A program made the position numbers and the translations under genes. From Tremella fuciformis (taxonomy: Eukaryota > Basidiomycota > Tremellomycetes > Tremellales > Tremellaceae): a stretch of DNA of 64,000 nucleotides. The notes under the pieces were generated by a model, which saw nothing but the letters and a program-made list of their open reading frames with translations, had not been told where the DNA came from and did no database searches. Below, piece by piece: positions 8,748-64,000 of the stretch (positions are counted from its first letter, which is position 1; every line of letters starts with the position of its first letter). The stretch is taken from positions 434,001 to 498,000 of the forward strand of contig CP136494.1 in the NCBI GenBank assembly GCA_032768795.1, read 5' to 3'.

Positions 8748-10750
8748 TGGCCCCAACAACACCAGCGGCAACGCGCAAGGCGAGCGCGGCGAGACGACAA
8801 GCCCAGGCGGAGGGGCAGACCAGTGAGTCGGCGCGCTGCGCGCGCCGAGCGAGCGAACTGGTGGCTGACGCGAAGGGTGGGGCGGGCGATTCGTCGTGCC
8901 GTCGAGGGTAGCCCTGGTTGTGCAGGGCCAGGGGGCGGAGCGAGGGGGGGAAGAGGGGCGAGAGGAGCAGCCGGCGCGACATGAGTGGCCGAGAAGAGGG
9001 AGATGCAGAGCTGACGGGAAGGATTCGACGGCACCCAGCGGACTTTCGGTTGCGGGCGCGGCACTCGTCGAGAGCGCTCGGCAAGCGACGAGCTCGAGAT
9101 CGAAGAGCTCGGCGAGGAGGAGGTTGTCGGGGAGGTGATGAGGGGAGTGGTGAACGGGGAGGAGGAGGAGGAGGAGGGGGAGGAGGAGGAGGGGGAGGGG
9201 GAGGAGGAGGAGGAGGAGGAGGGCGATGGCGGCAGCTCGCCGCTGACGCAGCTCGAGCAGGAGGACGAGGAGATGGAGGTGGACGAGGGCGGCGCGGAGA
9301 GGCTCGAGCTCGAGCCTGCTCTGCCGGTGGACGAAGGAGAGGGCGAGCGGATGGGGCGGCGCCGGCGTAAGCCACAGCGGCACTATCAAGAAGAGATGAG
9401 ACTGACGGGCAGGAATCGAACGAACCGATAGCGTGTTCGACGCCGAGGCAAACTGGCGGGCTGGAGCCACCGCCTACCTCAACCCCTTCGACCGACCCGA
9501 CTCGGAGGCCCCAATGTGCGACGGAATCTTAGCTCTGAGGCAATGGGATTCCGGTCACCTGTTGCCCGCTCAGCACTTGCTATGAGTGATGCATTCGGAC
9601 TTACCTGTTGCCCGCTCAGCACTTGCTATGAGTGATGAGGAGGGCAACAGGCGGCGGCATTCTACAAGGTCGTCGAGGGTGTCGGCGTTATATGCGGAGT
9701 TATCGTTGTGGCAGCTTCCCCTGCCTCGTCGAGGATGAACCTCGTCGAGGATGAACCTCGTCGAGGATGTGTGTGCCTCGACAAGGTTACTCGAGGCTGA
9801 GTCAAGCTCATGTGAGCGTACTACCTATTTCCGTCGATGTGCGACGTAGTTTACTCCGTCGTGCATGACTTACCCTTGGGCGAGCGCCTACCCACGCCGC
9901 CGCGCACACGACCCAGTCGCCGACCGCAAGGAGAGGCAAGCGGCTCGCGCGGCAAAGTGAGCGAGGTCAGGGAGGTCAGCGGGGCCGACGACGTCGACAT
10001 GGAGGCGGAGGAGGCGGCTGAGGCCGCGCTGCAGGCGGCGGCCGAGAGGATGGAGGCCTCCATGGAGGCACTGCAGGCGGCGATGGGCTGGAAGGGCAAG
10101 GGGAGGGAGGAGGGGGAGAGGAGGGGAGAGGGGGAGGGGGCGCGGAGACCGACACCGCGAGCGGCGCCGCGGACGCCTGCGGCGGCCGCAACACCTTCCC
10201 GGAGACCGGCAGCGCCTCCAGCGACCCCGCGACAAGCCGGGCGGCACGAGAATCGGACGCCAGCGAAGATCCTCGTCAGTACCCGTCACAACCAGCGGTA
10301 GATACTTATCAGCAGGACCACCACAAGGACGCGGTAGACGCCGAGCGGCCGTGTCGTCGGTGTAGACGAGAGGGACGCCGCTGCCTCGTCCCGCCGGGCA
10401 CAATAGGCCGAAAGTGCTTCACCTGCACAACCGGCCGCTGTACTCTGAAGGATGGGGAGGCGCCGTCCAGCTCGCCGACCGCCGAGCGGACGCCACTGCG
10501 CGGCGACCCCCCGGCGACACCTCGGCGCGACGCGCCCGCGACACCTCAGCGGTCTGCGGAACGCCACATCGGTCCAGGCGACTTTGCAGCCGCCCAGGGC
10601 CTCGCGGCGCTCGCGCGCAGCCCGGACAACCCCCGACTGCGTCAGTACGCCGTCAATGAGCTGCGGCGCATGCTTGGGGAGGATCTGAGCGAGTGGGGTC
10701 TTGAGGACCTCAGCGAGGGACCGGCCCCCGGTGGGTCGGGAGGACGATAG
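8748..10750 (+). pseudogene. Antisense zinc-cluster gene of Gypsy-3, interrupted by a solo LTR
   Basis: The product is likely a nuclear DNA-binding protein. My model has exons 8748-8822, 9039-9366, 9413-9518 continued at 9842-10274, and 10313-10750. All phases agree and give about 459 residues. The first intron (216 bp) is the least certain. The 46 bp intron 9367-9412 has GTAAGC, CTGAC and CAG. The protein has a basic N-terminus, a long Glu/Gly-rich acidic stretch, a block with VFDAEANW, a Pro/Arg-rich linker, the cluster CX2CX6CX10CX2CX4C (from about 10352) and a C-terminal helix with NPRLRQYAVNELRRMLG. Homology to the gene at 61708-63301 in Gypsy-2 is the main support. The solo LTR (318 bp plus a 5 bp duplication) disrupts exon 3. 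Confidence 0.7.
9519..9836 (-). repeat. Solo Copia-A LTR
   Basis: A complete 318 bp LTR (CGACGGAATC...TTTCCGTCG as read on plus) is flanked by the 5 bp duplication ATGTG (9514-9518, 9837-9841). No internal sequence remains, so this is the product of LTR-LTR recombination. Removing it with one duplication copy restores a continuous reading frame in the host gene. Confidence 0.93.
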
Positions 10751-10858: not shown

Positions 10859-12834
10859 TCATACGGCTCGGCGAGCGCCTCGCCGAGGCTTCGGCGCACT
10901 TGATGGCTTCTCTGGGTGAGCGGTGTGGAAGTCCGCGATGAGCTCGGCGGCCGACTCGCTCACATGAGCTAACGGCTCCCAAGTCGCGTGCTCATCCGTG
11001 AGCTCAAAGCCCAACCACTCAACGAGGTACTCAAGGCGTCCACGGCGTATTTGAGAATCCAGGATCGCCGCGACCTCCCAGCATGGAGGGAGGGAGAGCG
11101 AGGCGATACGTTACCGGGTTGACCTGCTCGATGATCTCGAACGGTCCACCAAACTTGAGGTCCAGCTTCTTCATCGGTCGCCGAGTCTCGATGTTCTTCA
11201 GCGAGAGGAGCACCGAGTCACCGATCTTGAAGCTGGGCGGCGACGAGTGCTTAGCATTGTAGTGCCTCGCATAATCGCGGTTCGCCGCCTCAATGTTAGC
11301 CCGGCAGAGCTCATGCAGATCACTCAGCTCCGTTGCCTTCCGCAGTCCCAGTTGTTCACCGGCATCCGCACCCTCCCTCTCCAAGTTCTCCGAGTTCACC
11401 AAGTCCTCCGTCCACCTCGGCGAGTACCCAAAGTTTGCTACAAACGGTGACATCTCGATGGCCGAGTGCTTCCAGTTGTTGTACGAGAACGATGCGCACG
11501 GCAAAAGCTTAGCCCAGTTGTCTTGCTGATAGGTCGAGAAGACCCGAAGGTACTGCTCGAGAACTTGATTTACCCGCTCAGTTTGCCCATCAGTCTGCGG
11601 ATGGAAAGCCGTGGACAAGGACAGCTTAATACCCAAGGCCTTGCACAGGTTGGCCCACAGCTTACTGGTGAACTTGGAACCTCGATCAGAGACGATGGAT
11701 TGCGGGAGCCCGTGTTGACAGACCACGTGATCAATGATCAACTTGGCGAGTCCCGCCGAGTTGAGCCGAGTGGTCGTCGGGATGAAAATCACCTACTTCG
11801 TTAGTCTGTCAACAACCACCAGAATCGAGTCAAAACCATTAGAGACCGGCAGCGGCTCGATAAAGTCCATGGAGATGGATGCCCAGGGCCTCTCAGCTAT
11901 CTCCAGTGGCTGGAGGAAGCCGTGAGCCCGGTGACGGTCGGTCTTGGTCCGCTGACATACTGCGCATGCGCGGACGAAGGCCTCCACGTCGCGCCGAAGG
12001 CCAAGCCACGCGTAGTCGCGCTTCACCAACTCGAGAGTCTTCGCAACGCCCGGGTGTCCTGCGAGGATAGCTTCGTGCCGCCTCTTTAGGATCTGCACCC
12101 GTTCCGGTCCTGGTTCCACGTAGAGTCGTCCGTCGACTCGCAACCTTCCGTCGGGGTCACGCTGCAAGAGCGCTTCCCCAGGGAGGCCGAGCCTCCGGCA
12201 GAATCCCAACAGGGCGGGGTGAGTCGAGGCGAGAGTAGGCGCGTCAGGGGTTAACTCAGCTAGGACCGGAGACAACTCGGCGACCTCAACGCGTTCCTCG
12301 CCGACCTCCTCCTCCTCCTCCTCCTCGACCCCGATCTCGCCGAGTGTCGCTGCACGGAGGAGATGGCCAAGGGAGGACGAGACCGTGGAGGAAGAGTCGG
12401 CGGTGGGGAGTGCCTGTATGAAGTTCTGCGGCTGCTGCATCAATGGCCCTGGGAGATATGCCGAGTCACGGGAGAGCGCATCGGGAAGCTCGCCCTCCTT
12501 ACCAGGGCGATACACGATTTTGTAATCGAACCCGGCTAAGATCTCAACCCATCTAGCCTGGCAAGGGTTCAGCTGCCGCGGCTCCATCCAGTAAGTACTC
12601 GTGATCCAGTGCGTTTCGTCCACCTAGGCGTTTCGTCCACAATTAGGGAGTCTCCTAATGGTAGGCAAGGCACATTAGCGGCGACCTCCGATATTTGTAA
12701 TAGTGGACGAAACGCCTAGGTGGACGAAACGCACTGGATCACGAGTAAGATTCAAGTGGTCAGTGATGACCGTGGAATGAACCTGAGACAACAGATGCCG
12801 CTTACGCCGGAAGGCGTGAACGATAGCCAGGAAC
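10859..12834 (-). pseudogene. pol: Gypsy-3 pol remnant: RNase H, integrase, chromodomain
   Basis: The minus strand encodes the end of RNase H (FLAIVHAF, TDHLNLT), an acidic linker (GVEEEEEEEVG), the integrase zinc region (HEAILAGHPG, CAVCQRTK), the catalytic core (SMDFIEPLP, IVSDRGSKF, DGQTERVNQ) and a chromodomain (LEYLVEWLGFE, about 10920-11070). It is broken four ways: by truncation at 12834, by the MITE, by a TAG at 11793-11795 where tryptophan is expected after DRLTK, and by a small deletion plus frame change near 11065-11085. That deletion removes the segment between LPPSM and the chromodomain. The closest relative here is Gypsy-2 Pol. Confidence 0.88.
12598..12745. mobile_element. 148 bp MITE with 43 bp terminal inverted repeats
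   Basis: The ends CTCGTGATCCAGTGCGTTTC and GAAACGCACTGGATCACGAG are the outer parts of perfect 43 bp inverted repeats (12598-12640, 12703-12745). Each arm contains gcgtttcgtccac twice. It is flanked by TA (12596-12597, 12746-12747). Removing it with one TA restores the Gypsy-3 frame across LNLTYW. A TA duplication suggests mobilisation by a Tc1/mariner-type transposase. Confidence 0.93.
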
Positions 12835-37583: not shown

Positions 37584-37933
37584 CAACGGAAATAGGTAGT
37601 ACGCTCACATGAGCTTGACTCAGCCTCGAGTAGCCTCGTCGAGGCACACACATCCTCGACGAGGTTGTGCCTCGACGAGGTTCATCCTCGACGAGGTTGT
37701 GCCTCGACGAGGTTCATCCTCGACGAGGCAGGGGAAGCTGCCACAACGATAACTCCGCATATAACGCCGACACCCTCGACGACCTTGTAGAATGCCGCCG
37801 CCTGTTGCCCTCCTCATCACTCATAGCAAGTGCTGAGCGAGCAACAGGTAAGTCCGAATGCATCACTCATAGCAAGTGCTGAGCGAGCAACAGGTGACCG
37901 GAATCCCATTGCCTCAGAGCTACGATTCCGTCG
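37584..37933 (+). repeat. 3' LTR of Copia-A E4
   Basis: At 350 bp this is the longest LTR of the family here, with five CCTCGACGAGG units alternating gttgtg and gttcat, and two 46 bp units. It starts CAACGG and ends CCGTCG. Confidence 0.92.
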
Positions 37934-50963: not shown

Positions 50964-51382
50964 TGTCACGACGGCCACGCCCTCGACGACCTACGCACGT
51001 GACCGACACCTCTCACGTGCCCGACACGTGACCTACCTCGGGCTGGAGAACCTCGACGAGGGAGTAGACGTTGGATGAACGCGCGACGACGGGAAGCAGG
51101 CGTAGAGTCATATAGGATGCCCCGGGTGCCCGTCGTAGTTCTTCAGCACTCTCTGATTGAGTCTCATGGATCATCATTGACGATCTCACTCTCTCCGTGG
51201 CACGCAGCGTGGCTGAGTCGCACTCACGCTGTATCCTCGACGACCTTGTAACCTCGACGAGGATCCAACCTCGACAAGGATCCTACCTCGACATCCTCGT
51301 TTCTACCCCTTTTATCCTTTATCCTTGACTCTGATATTGTGCAAGAGGGCCTCTGCCAACGGGAGAGCGCAGCATCGTGACA
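50964..51382 (+). repeat. 5' LTR of Gypsy-2
   Basis: It begins TGTCACGACGG and ends CATCGTGACA (8 bp inverted TGTCACGA/TCGTGACA). A TATA-like catatagg is at 51109-51116, about 35 bases before the sequence complementary to the primer site (51145-51157). Confidence 0.92.
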
Positions 51383-51384
51383 GT

Positions 51385-51397
51385 ATCAGAGAGTGCT
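51385..51397 (+). other. Self-complementary primer binding site of Gypsy-2
   Basis: Two bases after the LTR, ATCAGAGAGTGCT is the exact 13-base reverse complement of AGCACTCTCTGAT at 51145-51157, close to the expected transcript start. It has the same 2-base offset (gt) as in Gypsy-1. Confidence 0.78.
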
Positions 51398-51547
51398 ACT
51401 ACCTCTTCGCACAACCACGCACATACCCCGGGGCATATGCCCATCGAGACTCGACGTTCGACATCACTCAACCCGAACCACGAGCACCAAGCTTTACCAC
51501 AGTCCCTTCGACTTCCTCCTGCTAGCCGGTCTAGCACACCCAACAAC

Positions 51548-54500
51548 ATGGCGGATCAGGCTTCCCTCGCTCAGATCCTGCAACAGCTCGTTGCCATCGA
51601 GGCTCGACGAGCCAACTCCCCCGCTCCCTCGACCAACGCATCATCGAGCGAGCCAAAGGCCAACCCCGACGGAAATAGGTAGTACGCTCACATGAGCTTG
51701 ACTCAGCCTCGAGTAACCTTGTCGAGGCACACACATCCTCGACGAGGTTCATCCTCGACGAGGTTCATCCTCGACGAGGTTCATCCTCGACGAGGCAGGG
51801 GAAGCTGCCACAACGATAACTCCGCATATAACGCCGACACCCTCGACGACCTTGTAGAATGCCGCCGCCTGTTGCCCTCCTCATCACTCATAGCAAGTGC
51901 TGAGCGGGCAACAGGTAAGTCCGAATGCATCACTCATAGCAAGTGCTGAGCGGGCAACAGGTGACCGGAATCCCATTGCCTCAGAGCTAAGATTCCGTCG
52001 TGGTAACGTCTCGTTCGACAAGTCGCGGTAGATAGAACGCGTCAACAAACTCGTCGACCTTGCCTACGTACCGCCAGCCTCGAAGTGGTCCTCCGTCATG
52101 CCATCTGTGCAGACGGTGAAAGAAGAGCGCAAGCTCAATGGGCGCGACAACTACGCCCAGTGGGTGCGCGAGATTCGAGTCGTCCTCGGATCCGCCGGCC
52201 TTGTCCCCCACATCACCAAGGACGCGTCAGTGATCCGAGCACTCGTCGAGGCTCGATATCCAGTGTCAAGTCCGGCAACAGCAGCCGAGACATCGAAGAG
52301 AGCAGTTGCTCTATACGAGCATGAGAAGGAGCAGTCCACCGCCCTCTCCACTCTCTACGGCAGTCTGACAGAGACTGTCCAAAATAAGCTTCCCTCGAGC
52401 CTGATCGACTTCGAGAATCCTCAACCGAAGGGGCTTTACGATCACCTGGTCACCACATATGGGGCCGATAACGGATCTCGCCTAGCCGAATTATGGTCAT
52501 CGATATTTGGCGAGACCATCCCAGAGAATGAGGACCCCGAACCTCATCTCACTGCTATCCGGTCACAGTTGGCCGAAATCACCTCCTCCGCCATCACTTC
52601 CAAGCTCACCCTTGAGCAATTCGCCAACCAGATCGGCGCATACGCCGCCATCCGTCGCCTACCGTCCTCATACGGCCTCCTCGCATCGACCTTCTACTCA
52701 GGGACCTCGTCGAACAAGATCCATCTCGACGAGGTTATCGATAGGGTCGCCGATGAACACCGCCGACGTCAACAAAAGGGCGAGAGCGTAAACGAGATGG
52801 GGATGCTCAGCAAATCTCTACCGAAACCGGCAGGCAAGAGATGCATCCACCATCCGGATCAGGGGAGGCACTCCACAGATGAGTGCTGGAAAGTGATTGG
52901 AGTGCCGAAGCACATCCAGGAGCAGAGGTCGGCAAAGGAAGCAGACAGGAGGAAGAAGCAAGGAGGACAAGCGGGGAAGGGAATGAAGGCGAGAGAGCAG
53001 AGCGAGTCAGGAGATGACTCATCAAGTGAGGCCAAGAGAGGCTCGTCGAGGGAGATAAAGGAGGAAGGCTATTATGCGACAGAGATCGCACTGCACGCCC
53101 ACGATAACCTTCCCTCCACTTCCATCATCATCGACAGCGGTGCTACAAGTCCGTTTATCAAGGACAAACACCTCCTCTCCCACCTCACCAAGCTCGACAA
53201 GCCCATCAAAATCCAGATCGGAGATGGGTCAATTGTCGAGGCTACACACTCCGGCCGCCTGACATTCGAGAACGTATGGTACAAGAACGCCCTCTATGTC
53301 CCTTCATTCTCGCACAACCTCCTCTCCACACAGCGCCTCGGTCCATACACAGGGACCCATTGGCGCTTCTCGAGTGACTCGGCTACATTGGTCGAGAAAG
53401 GAAAGGTCATCCTCCGGGGCAAGAAGCTCGGCAACCTATGGGTTGTAGACGACACACCGGTACGCACCACCTCGCGCATTCACCGAGCACTTCAGGCAAG
53501 AGAAAACACTGAAGCCAAAGACAACCGCCTCCTCACCTGGCACAAGCGCCTAGGTCACTCGAACATGAGGAAGGTCTGGGAGCTCGGGAAAGAGGGGAAG
53601 CTAGGCGCAAAATGGACGGGATTGTTTCGGAGAGTCGAATGCATGGATTGCCTGAAAGGAAAGGCAACGCGCTCGGCATCTCTACCTAACCCGCGTCGAG
53701 CCGGCAAACCCCTCGTCGAGGTATCAGTCGATCTATGGGGACCAGCGACCGTCCAGTCGAGAGAAGGCTTCCAATACTTCCTCACCTGCTACGACGACCA
53801 TAGCAAATTTGTGCAAGCTATACCAATCAAGAAGAAGTCGGATGCAGCCGAAGCACTACAAGACTACATCAAGTTGGCAGAGAATCAGCTTGATCGAACG
53901 GTCAAGACCATCCGCTCAGACCAAGGAGGCGAGTTCACGAGCAAGGAATTCAGCCACTGGTGTACAAGCAAGGGAATTGAGCATACCCTCACGCCGACCG
54001 ACGCACACAATCAAAACAGTCGAGTCGAGCGCGTCCATCTCACCATCCTCAATGACATCCGCACATGTCTCGCGGACTCGAACCTGTCAAGTCAATTCTG
54101 GGTCGACGCATTACGATATGTAGTCTTCACCAGAAACAGGCTACCAGACTCCCAAGGAAAAATCCCTGTCGCTCTCTTTCGACCACATCACGACATTGAC
54201 ATACGATATGAAGGAATGCAGCCATTTGGCCAACACTGCATCTATCGAGTTGTGAGCCCCGCATCAAAGCTCGACGAGCGGGGTCAATGCGGTCGACTGC
54301 TGGGATACACAGAAGGGAGCTGGGGCTACAAGGTGTTGACCCAAACCAACAGGGTCATCGCAAGTCGAGACGTTACATTCATCACGGGCAAGAAGACAAC
54401 GCCACGTTCAGATGAATCGCGACGGATCCTGGAGCCGCCTCAACCTGAACCTCGACAAGCATCGACGAGCCTCGACGAGGATGACGATACATCAATCGAG

Positions 54501-57500
54501 CTGAACGAGATAGTCGAGGCAGGGGAGGCACCAGAAGAAGAGGAACAAAGGGGAGAGATGGACGACATACCTCCCCAAGCCGTGCCAAGGCAAGGGAGAG
54601 GCTGGGCCAACGAATACATTCGAGAGGATGCACCGAGCCCGGAACCGAACCCCGACGACGGACCAGAGGATCCAGATCGTCGGCTAAACCAGCCCATAGA
54701 GGCCGATGCAGATGAACCAAGACGGTCCGGGAGACTAGCAGGTCAAGAGCCCAGTCATCACCCTCTGCACGACATCGACATGGACTATAACCGAGTAGCC
54801 ATCGAGCACGCGTTATCAGCCCAGTCACTCACCAACCCTCAGTCATACACCGAAGCTCGTCGAGCTGCAGACTGGGAGGAGTGGAACAGGGCCATGGACG
54901 AGGAGATGACAAAGATGGAGAAATACGGAGTGTGGGAGAAAGTCCCCAGAGAGAACCACCGCACCCTTACAGGCAAATGGGTCTTCACCCGCAAAATCGA
55001 CGGGGACACGGGCAAAGCAAGCCAATACAAGGCTAGATTCGTCGTGAGAGGGTTCCAACAAGTCTCAGGACGGGATTTCGACGAACTCTTTGCATCGGTC
55101 ACCCACAAGTCTTCATTCCGCCTATTCCTCACCATCGTTAACTACCTCGACTGGGAATGCGACCAAATCGACATCATCGGCGCATTCCTCAAGGCCAATA
55201 TCGACAAGGACATCTTCATCGAGCCACCAGAAGGCAGCGACATCGCCGCCGGACATGTCCTGCACCTCCGGAAATCACTCTACGGTCTCCGACAATCACC
55301 GCACTTGTTCAACAAGCGCCTCGACGAGTTCCTACGGGAGCTAGGCTTCAAACCGACCCTAGCGGATCCATGCATCTACTCGCTGCGACAAGGACACAAG
55401 CGGTGCATGATCTCAGTCCACGTTGACGACATGCTCATAGCTGGCAACGATCGATCAACAATCGACGAGATCAAACGGAAGATCAACAAGGAACTCGAGT
55501 GCAAGGACCAAGGACCGGTCTCTTACTTCCTCGGTATCAACATCTACCGAGATAGGCCAAACAAGAAGATGTACCTGTCGCAAGAGCACTACATCGAAGC
55601 AGTTCTTCAACGCTTCGGTGAACCCGGCAAAGCCTGCAAGACAATCTTGCCAGACGCAAAGCTCGTCGAGGCTACGCCAAAGGAGGTCGACGAGGCTCGA
55701 GATAAACCATATCCAGCACTCGCCGGGTCAATCCTCTATATTGCCACGATCACCCGACCCGACATCGCCTACGCAGCATCACTGCTCTGTCGCTTCATCA
55801 GCAAATGGTCACTCACACATTGGAGGGCTGCGAAGCACCTGTTAAGGTATCTGCGAGGGACATCTGATCTCGCGCTCACCTTCGACGCACATGCAGGAAG
55901 GAGAGCACTGCTAGGCTGGGCGGACGCAGATTGGGGTGGATGTCTCGACACACGTCGATCCACAACCGGCTACGTCTTCACCACATACGGGGGCATTGTG
56001 TCATGGAAAAGCAGGCGACAACCAACAGTCGCACTCTCGACGACACAGGCCGAACTTCTAGCATCAACAGAAGCGGGCAAAGAGGCAATATGGCTCAGGC
56101 AATTATTGAACGACCTCGACCTCGGTATAGATGGAGCAGTGCCCATCTACAACGACAATAATGGAGCCATTCAACTGGCCAAACATCAACACGGGTTCAA
56201 GCTGAACAAAGCATTCGACATGCGAGCCCAGTGGATACGAGAGCATCAAGCTGGTGGACTGCTTGAGCTCAAATACACACCAACGGACAGCAACCGAGCC
56301 GACATCCTGACCAAGAACCTTTCGGCCGAGAAGACGAGACAGCTTCGGCAGTTACTGGGCTTGGGAAGACAAGGAGAAGCAGAGCAGCAGAGTCAATAGA
56401 CATGCTCGCGAGGGGAGGCGACGGAAATAGGTAGTACGCTCACATGAGCTTGACTCAGCCTCGAGTAACCTTGTCGAGGCACACACATCCTCGACGAGGT
56501 TCATCCTCGACGAGGTTCATCCTCGACGAGGTTCATCCTCGACGAGGCAGGGGAAGCTGCCACAACGATAACTCCGCATATAACGCCGACACCCTCGACG
56601 ACCTTGTAGAATGCCGCCGCCTGTTGCCCTCCTCATCACTCATAGCAAGTGCTGAGCGGGCAACAGGTAAGTCCGAATGCATCACTCATAGCAAGTGCTG
56701 AGCGGGCAACAGGTGACCGGAATCCCATTGCCTCAGAGCTAAGATTCCGTCGAACCCGCCCGACACTTTCGATGGCTCAAAGCCGGAGAAACTCGAAGGA
56801 TTCCTCATGCAATGTAACATCGTCTTTCGGCTACAACCTTCGAAGTTCACAGAGGAGTCCAAGGTCATTTACGCCATCTCCTTTCTCAGAGGATTCGTTC
56901 AGGACGCTATCCAGCCTCTCGCGTCGGGAGATGAGCTAGACGAGAAGATCAGTAGCTTCCAGAGGCTGTCGAAATACTTGAGAGACAACTTCGGAGATCC
57001 CGACATCAAGGGCACCGCTCAGAGGCGATACTTCGACTTGAAGCAGACCGGATCAGCGGCAGAGTACTTCGCGAAGCTTAGGGAGTACCTGGCGGTCTTG
57101 GGATGGGAAGCCAACGAGCAAGCTAGAGCTAGGGCGCTCGAGGGCCTCTCAGACAATCTTCGAGACGAGGTTGCTCGGACCACAGTGGAGCTGGAGACCT
57201 TCGGAGAGCTTCAGTCCTATGTCATCAAGTTGGACAACAGGCTCAGGGCAAGGGAGGCTGAGAAGAAGGCAGAGGTCAAGCGGTACAAAGAAGCTCGACG
57301 AGGACCAGCCCCGACTACCCAGCAGCAAGTTGCTCTTCCTGCCTCGTCGACCTACCGACCTCTCCCGCCGATCCCGTCGACGCGTCCATCGCCAGCCCCT
57401 AGTGGCCCGCCTGGTTTCAGGTCAACGCCTCCTGGAGGTCTCGACCCTGCCGAACGTCAGAGGAGGAACGAGCAGCGCCTCTGCTTCCGATGCGGCGGAG

Positions 57501-57607: not shown

Positions 57608-60600
57608 GGGACGCTGAGAACATACGAGAGGTCCAGCGGCCCCATCAACACATCCTCTCGGCCACCTCCCCTCCCCATTCACCTCCCAACCCCCCTGTAT
57701 CACAATCACCTTTAATCCCGAACCTCGACGAAGAAGTGAAAGATGAGAAGGCACTGGTTGCCACGGACGGAATAGCTAGTGATGAGGAGGCATGCATTCG
57801 TGGTGAGGTTTGCTGTTTAGGCAGAGAGCAGGCTGTCGTGTCAGGAAGCGTCAATCAAGTCGACGGGGTGAAGGTGCTGCTCGACACCGGGGCCACTGGT
57901 AACTTCGTCGACTCTGTGTTCGTTGAACGGCATCACATCCCCTGTTACCCACTCCCTCGACCCCGGCAACTCCTCCTCTTTGACGGTAAACCAAGCTCAG
58001 CAGGACAAGTAGAAAAGGGAGTGACGGGAACAGTAAAAGTCCTAGGCGGTGAAGGAAGGGAAGAGTTAGGTGTGACAACATTGGCAGGAGCGGACGTGGT
58101 GTTGGGATATGACTGGATGAAGGAGAACGGTGTGATATTGGATGCTGGAAGGAAGAAGGCGACAAGGAAGAGGACAGGCGGGAAAGAGACGAACCAGGAG
58201 AACGGACCACAGAACCTCGACGAGGTCTCTCGACTATCAGGAACATTGGAGACCAAGGCGGAAAGGCGACAAGGTAGACGAAGGAGCAGGCGATCGAAGG
58301 CGAACAGCATTGAGCTCCCATTCAATCGATGGGAGCAGAACCAGGGAAATACAGTCGAGCTATGCGGCACAGTGACCGAGGAGTTGAGCGAGAAAGAGGC
58401 ATACATCGACGTTCTACCCGACTATGACGAGTACAAACTCAGCCCAGAGGAGGAAGCAGCTGTGCAACATCTTGTCCCGGAGCGGTATCACAAATACCTC
58501 GAGGTCTTCCATCCTCGACGAGGGGTAGAGACGCTTGCTCCAAGTAGAGAATACGACCTACGCATCACGCTTAAACCTGGAGCCGACCTACGAGTGGCCC
58601 CGCTGTATAGCTTGAACCCAGATCAGATGGAGGCGCTCGACAAGTTGCTGGATCGAGAGAGAAAGGCTGGAAGGATTTGACCATCGAACTCGCCCTATGG
58701 CTCACCAAGCTTCTTCGTACCAAAGAAAGCCCAAGGGGAACTGAGAATGGTTGTCGACTATCGCAAGCTCAACGAGATGACGGTACCGGATGCATACCCG
58801 CTACCCCTGATATCCCAAGTGACCGACGACCTAGCCAAGTCGAGATACTACACGAAGCTCGACTTGCCGGGAGCATACCAGCTGCTCCGGATGGCTCCTG
58901 GACATGAGAAGTTCACTGCATTCCGTACCCCTCGAGGAATGTTCGAGTCACTGGTGGTGCGAGACGGACTTCGGAACGCGCCGAGCGTGTTCCAACACTT
59001 CTTGAACGAAGTCCTGCACGAATTCCTGGGAAAAGGGGTCATCATCTACATCGACGACATTCTCATCCATGCGGAGAACCTCGAGGAACTTAGGAGATTG
59101 ACTAAGGCGGTGCTGGAGGCGTTGCGGAAGGCTGGACTGTTTGTGAAGGCCTCTAAGTCGGAATTCGAGCAGACTAAGGTGAAGTTTTTGGGCTTCATCA
59201 TCTCGCACGAGGGCGTCGAGGCTGACAGTGGGTATGTCGAGGGTGTCCGCAATTTCCCTACCCCTCGAAACCTACACGAAACTCGACGATTCCTCGGCCT
59301 CGCGAGCTATTACCGACGCTTCGTACCGCAGTTCTCCAAGCTTGCTGGACCTCTCTCGCACCTCACAAGGAAGGATATCGACTTCCACTGGGGAGATGGA
59401 CAGCAGTGGGCGTTCGAGGAGATCAAGAGGCGAATGAGCGAGGCACCAGTGATCGCTCACTTCAACCCGACGTTCGAGACTATCATCCAGACAGACGCCT
59501 CGGTCTATGGGTGGGGGTTCATCATCTCGCAGGTGAACTCCTCGACAGGACAAGAACACCCTGTTGCAGTCGAGTCGGGTGCCTTTTCAGGAGCGGAGCT
59601 CAACTACACCACCACGGAGAAAGAGTTCCTCGCGATCGTTATGGCTTTTAAGCGGCGTCGACATCTCCTTCTGCAGGTCACCTCGACGATCTTGACCGAC
59701 CATCTCAACCTCACATACTGGATGGAGCCACAGAAACTCAGCCCTCGAGTTGCGACATGGGTGGATACCCTGGCTGGCTTCTCATACAAGATCGTCTACC
59801 GACCAGGGACCAAGGCAGCCTACCCGGACGCATTATCGAGGAGAGCCGACTACATTCCACAGGGCAAGGACGCAGAACCAGAGCTAGTCCAAGCCCTGCC
59901 AAGTTTCGACAAGGAGAGTACGGTCACATCCAGTCTGGGCTACATGTTGCGAGCGCTAGGAGAAGACGAGGAAGAAGGAGAAGACGAGGAAGAAGGAGAA
60001 GACGAGGAAGAAGGAGATGACGAGGGAGAATTGGAGGGATTGTCTCGAGGGGAATTGAAGGAAGGACAACAGGGAGATGAGGACTTGAGGGATACATTGG
60101 AGGAGCTTGGAGAGCTAAGAGGGGAGAAGAGGATTACGAAGGAGGAGAACCCAAGGGCATGGTCACTGGCGAAAAGACTGGGCCTCGACGAGGCAAGCAA
60201 GATCAAGTTCGACGAGGATGGCCTATTTAGAATCAACGGCCGACTCTACATCCCGGATATCAAGCAGGCAAGAGTAAAGGTCATGCGGGATCACCATGAG
60301 GGGCAATTGGCTGGACATCCTGGAGTTGCGAAGATGCTGGAGCTGGTTAGGAGGGAGTACTGTTGGTTGGGACTAAGACGGGATGTGGAGAAGTATGTGA
60401 GGGGGTGTGCAGTGTGTCAGCGGTGTAAACCGGTGCGTCAGCGTCCCCATGGACTGTTACACAGCCTGGAGATCGCTGACAGGCCATGGTCCTCGATATC
60501 CATGGACTTCATCGAGGAGCTTCCCGCCAGCTCGGGCTTCAACTCGATCCTTGTCGTCGTCGACCGGCTCACCAAATGGGCTATCTTCATTCCTACGACA

Positions 60601-61584
60601 ACTCGGCTCAACACGGCAGGCCTGGTCGACCTTGTCCTCGACAATGTGGTAGCGCAGCATGGGCTACCCACGAGCATCATCTCGGATAGAGGAAGCAAGT
60701 TCACCAGCAAGCTGTGGGGAGCAATGTGCAACACCCTCGGCATCAAGGTCAGCCTCTCGACAGCCTTCCACCCTCAGACGGATGGGCAAACTGAAAGGAC
60801 AAATCAAGCCCTCGAGCAATACCTGAGGATCTTCTGCGACTACAAGCAGGACAACTGGGCTACCCTTCTCCAGCGAGCGGCGTTCGCGTACAACAATTCA
60901 ATGCATTCGGCAATCATGATGACGCCGTTTGAGGCAAACTTCGGCTACGCCCCAAGGTGGGCAGAATCCATCGTCGTCGAGGGAGAAGCTCGAGAAATCC
61001 CAACAGTCGTCGAGAAATTTGCCTCGCTCGAGGAGGTGCACGCCTTGTGCAAGAAGAACATCGAGCTCGCCAATGAGGCCTACGCAAGAGGGTACAACGC
61101 CAAGCATCAGGAGGCCCCCGAGATGAAGGTAGGGGACCAAGTGATGCTGTCGATGGAAAACATACAAACTCGACGACCTTCGAAGAAGCTCGACTTGAAA
61201 TGGTGTGGACCCTATAGGATCATCGCAAAAGCGGGCAGCGCGTACAAGCTTGAGCTGCCCGACACAATGAAGGTCAACCCAGTCTTTTCGGTGGACCGAC
61301 TCAAGGTATTCGAGCCACCGACGCTCCCAGGACAAACATACGATCCGCCAGGGCCTGTGGAAGTCGACGAGGAAGGGGAGTCATTCGAGGTAAAAAGGAT
61401 TATCGACTCGAGGAAAAGGAGAGGACGATTGGAGTACAAGGTGGAGTGGCTTGGGTATGAGGGAACGGATGAGGCGACGACATGGGAACCGGCAGGGAAC
61501 ATTGATGGAGCCTGGGCGAGCATTGAGAAGTTCCACAAGGAGAACCCGGAGAAGCCAGGAGGCCAAGCAGCAACCAGGGCCTAA
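57600..61584 (+). pseudogene. pol: Gypsy-2 Pol with one premature TGA
   Basis: The -1 frame relative to gag is open from 57490 and runs to 61584 except for TGA at 58678-58680, between the RT-entry segment and the first catalytic blocks. Protease has DTGA (57880). Reverse transcriptase has YIDD at 59047, but a motif that normally reads MPFGL is VRDGL (58961-58975), so activity is doubtful. RNase H (TDASVYGWG), an acidic linker made of 15-base repeats (59957-60020), the integrase zinc region (GHPGVAKMLEL, CAVCQRC), integrase D-D-E (SMDFIEELP, IISDRGSKF, DGQTERTNQ) and a chromodomain (EYKVEWLGYEG, TTWEPAGN) follow. Pol ends 123 bases from the stop of the convergent antisense gene. Confidence 0.9.
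59957..60020 (+). repeat. Tandem 15 bp repeat coding for an acidic linker
   Basis: About four units of gaagacgaggaagaa/gga encode GEDEEEGEDEEEG between RNase H and integrase. Gypsy-3 has an acidic run (EEEEEEEVGEE) at the same place. Confidence 0.75.
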
Positions 61585-61707: not shown

Positions 61708-63301
61708 TCAAGATGTCCCCTCAAGAAACTCCCCAAGTGTCAACTCGTCGAAGTTAACACCCAAGTCACCTGCAATGTCCCGTGCCCGTGAGATAAAGTA
61801 GGTACGCATCGGTGCTTGAGTCTCCCGGCGAGCGAAATGACTCAATTGAAATAACTCTTGCCACCGGCGGTCTGGGGCAGAGGTCGAGGTCACTGGAGCA
61901 GGTGGTGGTGGTGCTGGCGGCGGTAGCTGCATCATGGGCGGGGGTGGAGACCAGTGAGAAGTCCTTGATGGCCCGGCTTGAGGTGCGGGATCGAATCCGC
62001 CATCCCCTAACCAACCCGTGCCAGCGTCGCCCATTGGTTCCGGAGCAAGGGGAGGGTGTGGGCTCAGCCTACTCGTCGAGGTAGGATGCCCCGAGCGGAG
62101 CCTCTTGTGTGCCAACGGTGACGAAATGGGCGAGGACGAAGAGCGAGCCCGACGTTTCTCTCTTCCCTTTCCCTTCCCTTTCTTCCCAGAAGCCTTGACC
62201 GTGCCTGCTAGGTCGATGTTGGCGAGGCCAGCAGCCAAGGTCGTCGACGTGGACCGGGCTGCAGCGAGTCGGCCGGAGCGTCGAGCGCCGGGCGTGACGG
62301 GCGAGGGAGACGTGCCGCGGGCGAATGACACCTGACGGCGCCGTGCCGATGACGAGGGGCCAGGAGTCACCGTGCCGAACGAGCAGGCTAGGGTGCCGCA
62401 CGTTAGGCACTTCACTTTCTTGCCTTCCTCGACGATGCGACATGGGAGGTCGTCCGCGACACATGCCTCGCATCGCTCATCTCCCTCCAGGACTCGGATT
62501 GGCCGTGAACCCGCTTGTTGCTGAATGTCAGAGGATACTAAACAGCTGACAATACTCACCCGGGCCCATGTCAGAGATCTGTTGTATCCCCGCTGTCCTC
62601 GGTCGGGGTAGTGGGAGCCTACTGATCAGTTTGGGCGAAACTTGCAGACTTGACTCACCAAAGAACGAACGGTCCAATGGCTCTGACTCTGGGACCGGCA
62701 GTCCCCATCCTTCCTTCACATAGTATGCCTCCTCGGAGGCATTACGCGGGTCAAATCGCCGGCTAGGAGGAATCTCCTCCTCGGACAAGCTCGACGATGC
62801 TGGAGTGTCGGGCGCTAGCTCGTCCACACCAGCCTCTACATCCAACTCCTCCTCCCCCTCTTCCTGTGGGACATCCGCGGCAGGCGCATCGCTGAGTAGC
62901 TCCCCAGCTTGTTCGTCGGGCGGTGGGATGGCTCCGACGGCGGGGAGTGGAACAGCCTCGTCAACTGTTGGGATGTCGGCAGTCGAGGCGGCTTGCGTGG
63001 GGGATGGGAAGGGGGTGCCTTCGGGTTGGGCGGTGCCGGCACGAGATGAGGATGGGTTGGACATCGAGTCGACACTGACAGTCTCAAATCGAGAATCGGT
63101 TTCTGTGCAGAGCGTTACTGACCCGTCTGAGTCAGAAGATGCCTCGTCTACAGTTGCCGTAGGGGTTGTAGAAGAAGGATAGGACAGCGCGTTGTCTAGA
63201 GAACTGCTGTCAAAGAGGATGTAAGGAGATGGACGGGGCGAGCTTGTGGTAAAGGTGGATGCGTCGAGTGTTCTGGGGCTTGAGAGGTGTAGCCGGGGCA
63301 T
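61708..63301 (-). CDS. Antisense zinc-cluster gene of Gypsy-2
   Basis: The exons (minus) are 63301-62659, 62618-62560 and 62520-61708, giving 504 residues. Intron 1 (40 bp) has GTGAGT, CTGAT and TAG; intron 2 (39 bp) has GTGAGT, CTGAC and CAG. The phases fit exactly. The N-terminal half is Ser/Pro/acidic-rich and disordered, ending in RRFDPRNASEEAYY. From about 62463 a cluster CX2CX6CX10CX2CX4C (CEACVADDLPC, CLTCGTLAC) resembles Zn(II)2Cys6 DNA-binding domains, but the last spacing is 4 instead of the usual 6-8. A basic stretch (KKGKGKGREKRRARS) may be a nuclear signal. The C-terminus has a helix (MRTYFISRARDIAGDLG). The start lies 334 bases from the 3' LTR, so the LTR may drive it bidirectionally. 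I infer a nuclear regulator; no known family was recognised. Confidence 0.75.
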
Positions 63302-63635
63302 AAGGCGTGAGTTGAGGTTGATGGTGGGGATGAGAGCGCTGACGCCCTCTCCCCCCTCTGTTTATGTCGTTTTCGAGCACCCCGCGACATGGCGACGCCC
63401 TCGAGCAACACGAGGCTACCTCGACGACGGATTGGCAGTCCTTTCTCCGTTTCCTTGACGACCGCTCGACGACTTGTCGCCAGAGTTTCGCTTCCGTTAC
63501 AAGCGACGTCATTCGACTGCTGTCTCGACTCCTGGATCGGCAATGCGGGTGTGTTCGACGAGGACGAGGGAGAAGGCTGGAGTGGATGGAGATAGCGCGT
63601 GTCTCGCAGGAGCTCGACTTCAAAGGTGGGCAGAG

Positions 63636-64000
63636 TGTCACGACGGCCACGCCCTCGACGACCTACGCACGTGACCGACACCTCTCACGTGCCCGACACG
63701 TGACCTACCTCGGGCTGGAGAACCTCGACGAGGGAGTAGACGTTGGATGAACGCGCGACGACGGGAAGCAGGCGTAGAGTCATATAGGATGCCCCGGGCG
63801 CCCGTCGTAGTTCTTCAGCACTCTCTGATTGAGTCTCATGGATCATCATTGACGATCTCACTCTCTCCGTGGCACGCAGCGTGGCTGAGTCGCACTCACG
63901 CTGTATCCTCGACGACCTTGTAACCTCGACGAGGATCCAACCTCGACGAGGATCCTACCTCGACATCCTCGTTTCTACCCCTTTTATCCTTTATCCTTGA
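63636..64000 (+). repeat. 3' LTR of Gypsy-2, cut by the window end
   Basis: 365 bases of the LTR are visible, starting TGTCACGACGG and following the purine tract aaaggtgggcagag. It matches the 5' LTR except at about two positions (gggcgccc for gggtgccc, ctcgacgagg for ctcgacaagg). Confidence 0.93.

Follow-up and report, generated by a model that had tools for sequence, protein, structure and literature searches.

An intron-containing antisense gene with a six-cysteine cluster in chromovirus elements of Tremella fuciformis

The antisense gene and the element that carries it

We analyzed a stretch of 64,000 nt of the Tremella fuciformis genome (GCA_032768795.1, contig CP136494.1, positions 434,001 to 498,000, forward strand), referred to below as the window; coordinates are those of the window unless another contig or locus is named. 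The window contains a copy of an LTR retrotransposon, here called family A. The 3' part of its pol gene (58747..61584, plus strand) encodes reverse transcriptase, RNase H, integrase and a chromodomain (PF00078, PF17917, PF00665, PF17921, PF00385), which identifies the element as a chromovirus, a Gypsy element with a chromodomain. The 3' LTR (63636..64000, plus strand) runs off the window and carries the palindromes CCTCGACGAGG at positions 63723, 63924, and 63941. The 5' LTR of the same element lies at 50964..51398 (plus strand), with its end set by the LTR length in other copies. The LTR is about 435 nt long, and matching 5-bp target duplications flank four of the copies (L012, L014, L019, and L022); some family A copies, such as L027, show no clear duplication. 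Among relatives of pol assigned to a named organism, the best belong to two tremellomycetes, Kwoniella shandongensis (64%, covering 49% of the query) and Tremella mesenterica (59%, covering 73%), in keeping with a tremellomycete host.

The window copy is damaged. A second element, named Copia-like by eye (51667-56718, with LTRs starting at 51667 and 56419 and a frame of 1433 codons at 52098-56399), is inserted in its 5' part, and the pol of the window copy runs without a stop over 967 codons, compared with 1366-1400 codons in 15 of 20 other copies. The LTR pair of the Copia-like element is identical over the 300 nt compared, and the insertion is therefore probably recent.

Between the pol stop (61584) and the start of the 3' LTR (63636), the minus strand carries a gene of three exons (63301-61708), with 1515 nt of coding sequence, 504 codons, and the first stop at codon 505. 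Exon 1 (62659..63301, 643 nt) encodes a part of the protein that is acidic around residues 51–200. It is followed on the same strand by intron 1 (62619..62658, 40 nt, phase 1), exon 2 (62560..62618, 59 nt), and intron 2 (62521..62559, 39 nt, phase 0), both introns being of the GT..AG type. Exon 3 (61708..62520, 813 nt with the stop) encodes the cysteine cluster, a basic middle part of low complexity, and a C-terminal segment predicted to be helical. The cluster itself (62383..62472, minus strand, residues 251–280) reads C-x2-C-x6-C-x10-C-x2-C-x4-C and lies entirely within exon 3. This confirms, in coordinates and in splice phases, the three-exon gene of 504 codons that a preliminary description of the window had placed between pol and the 3' LTR. 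The antisense gene and pol are convergent, with 123 nt separating their stop codons. Coding on the sense strand over the antisense gene was considered and rejected, as the longest sense ORF listed there has 125 aa; for exon 3, sense coding was likewise rejected, with an average of 5 to 11 stops in the opposite frames.

A TATA-like sequence, CATAAAC (63360..63366, minus strand), is located about 60 nt upstream of the ATG, and upstream of it lies the block CGCCATGTC (63386..63394, minus strand). Both have a counterpart in a related element, copy L033 of family B (see below), in which TATAAAC is found at a similar distance before the first possible ATG and the block is present at a like distance. 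The TATA-like box varies in the family B copies L034, L035, and L036. From the position of these blocks, the promoter of the antisense gene appears to be internal rather than located in the LTR.

Conservation of the gene in copies and related families

A search of the genome returned 32 matching stretches. From these, 24 loci were taken (L009-L032), of which 23 were aligned with the window copy and one fragment (L032) was left out. The whole spliced frame is kept in 19 of the 24 aligned rows when the window is included, that is, in 18 of the 23 other copies; the rows without an intact frame are L016, L028, L029, L030, and L031. L015 and L017, both with an intact frame, deviate in length by a single codon each. 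Every one of the 24 rows has GT..AG at intron 2; at intron 1 it is present in 23, and the broken copy L030 has GC..AG instead.

The substitutions follow the pattern of a coding sequence. Polymorphic sites at the first, second, and third codon positions number 27, 29, and 83 in the 19 intact rows (chi-square, p 3e-10), and dN/dS over the 17 distinct intact sequences is 0.163. The preliminary description had named conservation of the frame in other copies and a Ka/Ks ratio distinct from 1 as checks on the gene, and both were found. Within exon 3, the gene frame has a dN/dS of 0.111, and the ratio exceeds 2 in four of the remaining five frames. The last one, whose third positions coincide with those of the gene frame, gives 0.181 but contains 7 stops on average. 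When the same 13 copies are compared, dN/dS is 0.134 for the antisense gene and 0.074 for pol, indicating a constraint on the antisense protein that is weaker than the one on pol.

Identical LTR pairs are present in 10 of the 17 copies that have an LTR pair longer than 400 nt, and the gene is intact in nine of these 10. The exception, L028, has a dN/dS of 0.506 relative to the window copy, which we attribute to an unrelated N-terminal stretch in L028; the broken copies L029, L030, and L031 have ratios of 0.25, 0.32, and 0.23 in the same comparison. The gene is kept intact in most aligned copies, recent insertions included. A chance reading frame is rejected by the conservation among copies, the splice sites, the codon-position pattern and dN/dS, and we have hardly any doubt that this is a real protein gene, under selection and carried by the element.

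When exon 3 was used to search the genome, a second set of loci matched over the cluster, mostly with 51–60% identity (one with 43% and one with 39%). Family B, represented by copy L033, is a second chromovirus with a pol 68–69% identical to that of family A. The antisense gene of L033 consists of four exons and, counted from the first of two possible ATGs, is 556 codons long; its last two introns have the same places and phases as both introns of family A (intron 1 of A corresponding to intron 2 of B, and intron 2 of A to intron 3 of B). When just these two sequences are compared, the proteins of the two families align over 101 aa with 51% identity (E 5e-24). The conserved part includes the segment LDRsFFG..YP..G.G.NR.L.WA, which spans the splice sites and within which exon 2 falls. 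Based on the protein alignment, the shared position and phase of the introns, and the upstream blocks in common, the gene and its introns, and perhaps the promoter, predate the divergence of families A and B; descent from a gene older than this split is in our judgment very likely.

With the intron pattern and the selection on the frame in hand, an alternative can be weighed in which the frame is secondary and it is the antisense RNA that matters, by way of double-stranded RNA, in silencing or in copy control. An antisense transcript would cover the same stretch as the 3' part of the genomic RNA, and such a role is discussed for the antisense ORFs of plants in the relevant part of one source (PMC7264820). 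The purifying selection on the frame, the whole-codon length changes in L015 and L017, and the introns shared between families all point to the protein instead, so that this explanation is disfavoured and, in our view, very improbable.

Two further families may carry the gene. The integrase region of family D is about 64% identical to that of family A and the region of family E about 46%, and both families (L038 and L039, respectively) have a frame with six cysteines on the strand opposite to pol, just downstream of it. In 2000 Markov-simulated sequences generated for each of the two families, the six-cysteine pattern never occurred in a frame of at least 90 codons. Profile comparison with hhalign matched the combined A/B profile to the family D frame with an E-value of 3.4e-5 (probability 72), suggesting that this frame is probably homologous to the A/B gene. 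The match to the family E frame is weak (probability 33); that frame is possibly related, and may also represent an independent gain. A frame of this kind is present in the window itself, at 10022..10747 (plus strand, open from stop to stop), beside pol remnants of family D at 11034-12599 (minus strand). The preliminary description was right that the gene is carried by its element, as the copies, dN/dS and the family B homologue bear out, and it missed the genes of the other families, including this second element in the window.

To describe the distribution of the gene, frames were tallied against integrase hits, using the best 95 of 422 candidates, i.e., the best matches rather than all elements. 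An antisense match to a cluster frame lies within 3 kb downstream of 86 of these 95 integrase hits, some of the frames being broken. Counted with one row per locus, there are 102 cluster-frame loci, some of them fragments or frames with stops: 27 in family A, 32 in family B, 21 in family D (from 28 rows, second pieces and weak rows being dropped) and 22 in family E (from 24 rows, two having already been counted). Of these, 86 adjoin an integrase hit listed among the best 95 (24 of 27 for A, 30 of 32 for B, 15 of 21 for D, and 17 of 22 for E), at median distances of 130, 150, 147, and 227 nt, respectively. A unique passenger gene is rejected by the antisense match at 86 of the 95 best integrase hits. 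The sequences instead indicate an accessory gene of the element lineage, present in at least one other family of the same genome and probably in more.

These counts also bear on the possibility that a host transcription factor gene was captured recently as a passenger. An intron-bearing frame looks cellular, and antisense introns would stay in the sense RNA that is reverse-transcribed. Against such a capture, the gene occurs at the same site in more than one diverged family, no clear host copy was seen in the genome searches that gave the loci of families A, B, D, and E, and most loci adjoin an integrase hit in the tally of the best 95 of 422 candidates; we regard a recent capture as very unlikely.

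Nine integrase hits have no antisense match. Eight of these are 44–48% identical to the family A integrase, and the ninth is partial, with 67% identity. The 3' side was inspected for two of the nine. At L040, beside an integrase 44% identical to that of family A, the search pattern used gave no antisense cluster frame. At L041, beside the integrase at C5:990474 (48% identity), two antisense cysteine-rich frames were noticed by eye (378-851 and 1635-1913 of the locus, minus strand). Their cysteine spacing differs and they had been missed by the search pattern; the A/B profile matched the first of them poorly (probability 25).

The cysteine cluster and the encoded protein

The protein consists of an acidic N-terminal half, the segment conserved between families A and B, the cysteine cluster, the basic low-complexity middle, and the predicted helical C-terminal segment. 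An alignment of seven exon-3 pieces has 13 invariant columns, and among the copies the second cysteine (residue 254) is lost in L031 only. The spacing between the cysteines is 2-6-10-2-4 in family A, 2-6-11-2-5 in family B, 2-6-10-2-4 in family D, and 2-6-8-2-3 in family E. The residues between the second and the third cysteine are acidic or mixed in families A (VADDLP) and B (RSDNLP); family D does have basic residues there (RREGRR), and family E reads LKAKLV. Basic stretches are present elsewhere in the protein, such as PKRRRV in family B.

The preliminary description had called the cluster Gal4-like. The Zn2Cys6 domain of the Gal4 type (PF00172) has the spacing C-x2-C-x6-C-x5-12-C-x2-C-x6-8-C, and in proteins of this type basic residues between the second and third cysteine contact the DNA. 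The first five cysteines of the antisense protein fit this pattern (C-x2-C-x6-C-x5-12-C-x2-C). In contrast, the last loop has 4–5 residues in families A and B rather than 6–8, the loop between the second and third cysteine is not clearly basic, and no profile match above the cut-off is obtained in either family. The six cysteines in exon 3 were correctly described, and the Gal4 assignment is not supported: judged by sequence, the cluster resembles the Gal4-type domain in motif only and does not test as one.

Searches with the full protein against Pfam returned no family at E-values up to 1, and hence neither a bZIP nor a TRP28 domain, and all seven exon-3 pieces remained without a Pfam match at E-values up to 10. 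For the frames of families D and E and of L041 nothing exceeded the cut-off; the weak rows were SBDS_C for family E (E 0.024) and, for L041, DUF1804 (0.1) and DUF3716 (0.2), with others above these values. In a genome search with PF00172 (152 matches), none of the matches listed coincided with an antisense gene when compared by eye. None of the listed matches fell on contigs C9, C10, and C11 either, though these hold many retroelement hits; the three contigs may be accessory or centromeric and rich in repeats.

With phmmer, the whole 504-aa protein had no homologue at E-values up to 1 among 7987 candidates. A profile built from the seven exon-3 pieces found a single protein, which by eye is identical to the exon-3 frame of family B and thus most likely comes from the same species, so that these searches yielded no homologue outside this genome. 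IMG/VR was scanned with residues 1–283 of the protein and with pol, and neither scan returned a relative. Sequence searches of the PDB gave weak and unconvincing rows, the best being a T-cell receptor chain (E 0.39) in one and a BIR zinc domain (E 0.57) in another. Fold comparison produced no match with an E-value up to 0.001 among 60; the model used is of low confidence (mean pLDDT 56, pTM 0.24), and the predicted fold therefore says little.

Known antisense genes, a shared palindrome and possible roles

Most descriptions of antisense genes in LTR retrotransposons concern plants and retroviruses, and one source states, in the part relevant here, that what such genes do in retrotransposons has yet to be determined (PMC7264820). 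Close parallels in position are the antisense ORFs that some plant elements carry between pol and the 3' LTR, such as gene23 of Grande, RIRE2 and TRP28 of Retand (PMC7264820, PMC11963269). As described in the relevant passages of these papers, they have the same place and orientation, are kept in most copies, and are suspected of a nuclear or DNA-binding role (PMC7264820, PMC11963269). The Retand elements are non-chromoviruses (PMC11963269), whereas the element studied here has a chromodomain and its gene no TRP28 match in Pfam; the word "intron" is absent from the text of the Retand paper (PMC11963269), and the gene described here has two. Among fungi, Botrytis cinerea has the antisense gene brtn in its Boty-like chromoviruses (Zhao et al., 2011, Virology 417:248; via PMC7264820, PMC8365987, PMC4227169, PMC5987419). 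Going by these secondary descriptions alone, it likewise is an additional, antisense gene of a fungal Gypsy element that has a chromodomain; the same descriptions mention no cysteine cluster and no introns, both of which are present here. A survey of Tcn1-like elements notes in a figure legend that some full-length fungal chromoviruses have an "additional ORF of unknown function" (PMC2864245). The legend leaves the elements and the strand unstated, and the words "antisense" and "zinc" are absent from the text of that survey as available (PMC2864245).

A literature search, with most subscription journals outside its scope, returned no report of an antisense gene with a cysteine cluster in a fungal element. 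The transcript of the HBZ gene of the human retrovirus HTLV-1 is spliced. HBZ is an antisense gene near the 3' LTR and is described in the sources consulted as a nuclear regulator (PMC10186651, PMC11963269). It belongs to the bZIP type, whereas the gene described here has no bZIP domain, likely has an internal promoter and resides in a fungal retrotransposon. The general kind, an antisense gene between pol and the 3' LTR, is already known from plant Gypsy elements and from brtn. What is new is a spliced gene on the antisense strand of a fungal chromovirus, with the selection on it measured, its presence in more than one family of the genome, and the candidate site that accompanies it. With a gene spliced by its sequence and under purifying selection, which at least two and probably more families in this compact fungal genome share, and with a candidate site for its binding, the question of an element-encoded self-regulator becomes testable.

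This candidate site is the palindrome CCTCGWCGAGG, which occurs 74 times in the window (for example at 142-184, 9724-9766, 37634-37728, 51737-51795, 56489-56547, and 63924-63951), compared with 0.04 times expected, and often forms arrays with a 16-bp period. The arrays at 51737-51795 and 56489-56547 fall in the LTRs of the Copia-like element. Genome-wide, there are 387 pairs of palindromes with the spacing of the 16-bp arrays. In 15 copies of family A, the LTRs hold 86 full palindromes in 13.1 kb, the gag-pol region 45 in 78.5 kb, the antisense gene none in 23.9 kb, and the flanking sequence two in 27.9 kb. The core TCGWCGA has a density of 13.5 per kb in nine 5' LTRs of family A and of 10–15 per kb in three LTRs of family B, against 0.66 per kb in the flanks of family A; the density is 3.2 per kb in gag-pol and 3.6 per kb in the antisense gene of family A. 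In one LTR each of families A and B, TCGWCGA ranks first of 64 palindromes of the same form, with 10 hits compared with at most two for any other. In the 3' regions of one family D copy (L038) and one family E copy, the core is found 0.83 and 0.49 times per kb. In the Copia-like element, in whose frame no antisense cluster gene was seen, the density of the core is 13–14 per kb for the LTRs and 3.5 per kb for the coding frame. That the motif is shared by families A and B and sparse in the single D and E regions fits a protein with its target site, through co-occurrence only; it also fits a shared descent of LTR pieces or the site of a host factor.

We propose the following mechanism. The antisense gene would be transcribed from its own internal promoter with the TATA-like box about 60 nt before the ATG, and its transcript would be spliced and end next to the stop codon of pol. 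The protein would enter the nucleus through its basic stretches, where the cysteine cluster would bind DNA. It would then feed back on the element that encodes it, most likely through control of LTR transcription by way of TCGWCGA (in full form CCTCGWCGAGG); control of the LTR or of host chromatin had also been suggested in the preliminary description, and here, too, we infer it. Taken as a whole, this account of a selected, spliced accessory gene of the chromovirus lineage, with a promoter of its own and encoding a nuclear DNA-binding self-regulator that acts via TCGWCGA, seems to us reasonably probable. For the DNA-binding self-regulation as such our confidence is lower, and we put it forward tentatively. 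Against DNA binding speak the lack of a known DNA-binding domain and of a similar solved fold, and the acidic loop between the second and third cysteine in family A. The link to the motif, in turn, is one of co-occurrence only, and the motif is not confined to carriers of the gene, as the Copia-like element shows.

The VANDAL elements of Arabidopsis, which are DNA transposons, offer another model. Their VANC anti-silencing proteins are described, in the part of the source used here, as element-encoded proteins paired with repeated short motifs (PMC5735166). A VANC-like factor would bind the short motifs over the element and lift chromatin or RNA silencing, with no direct tuning of transcription. 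The core is indeed raised across the whole element relative to the flanks, and the full palindromes form arrays with a 16-bp period throughout the genome, as VANC targets often are tandem repeats according to the same part of that source (PMC5735166). However, the arrays that could be placed lie in Copia-like LTRs and not in elements that carry the gene, and the core density in the Copia-like frame argues that a raised density in coding sequence is not special to gene carriers. The link to the motif here is co-occurrence only and the host element is a retrotransposon, unlike in the VANDAL case, and we think an anti-silencing factor of this kind unlikely.

A further role to be weighed against self-regulation is that of a nucleic-acid-binding helper of replication or integration, acting as a chaperone, in nuclear import, or in target choice. 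The cysteine cluster and the basic stretches would suit such a helper, the predicted helical C-terminal segment could be a protein–protein module, and the frames mostly adjoin an integrase hit (86 of 102). The antisense placement, on the other hand, would keep the protein off the genomic RNA and separate its expression from that of Gag-Pol, an arrangement that would suit a regulator better; a helper appears to us quite unlikely.

Returning to self-regulation through the palindrome, a broader version would hold that the antisense protein, with a cysteine-cluster DNA-binding domain of an undescribed type, governs the whole chromovirus lineage via CCTCGWCGAGG in its own LTRs, and that unrelated Copia-like elements have gathered arrays of the site and live off the factor or are checked by it. 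We consider this version rather improbable.

The family D region in the window has 2.6 cores per kb, above the 0.83 per kb of L038, with none in the 1.7 kb of its pol stretch. Three full palindromes in this region (9724-9766) have the form of a 16-bp array, which may be part of an inserted Copia-like LTR.
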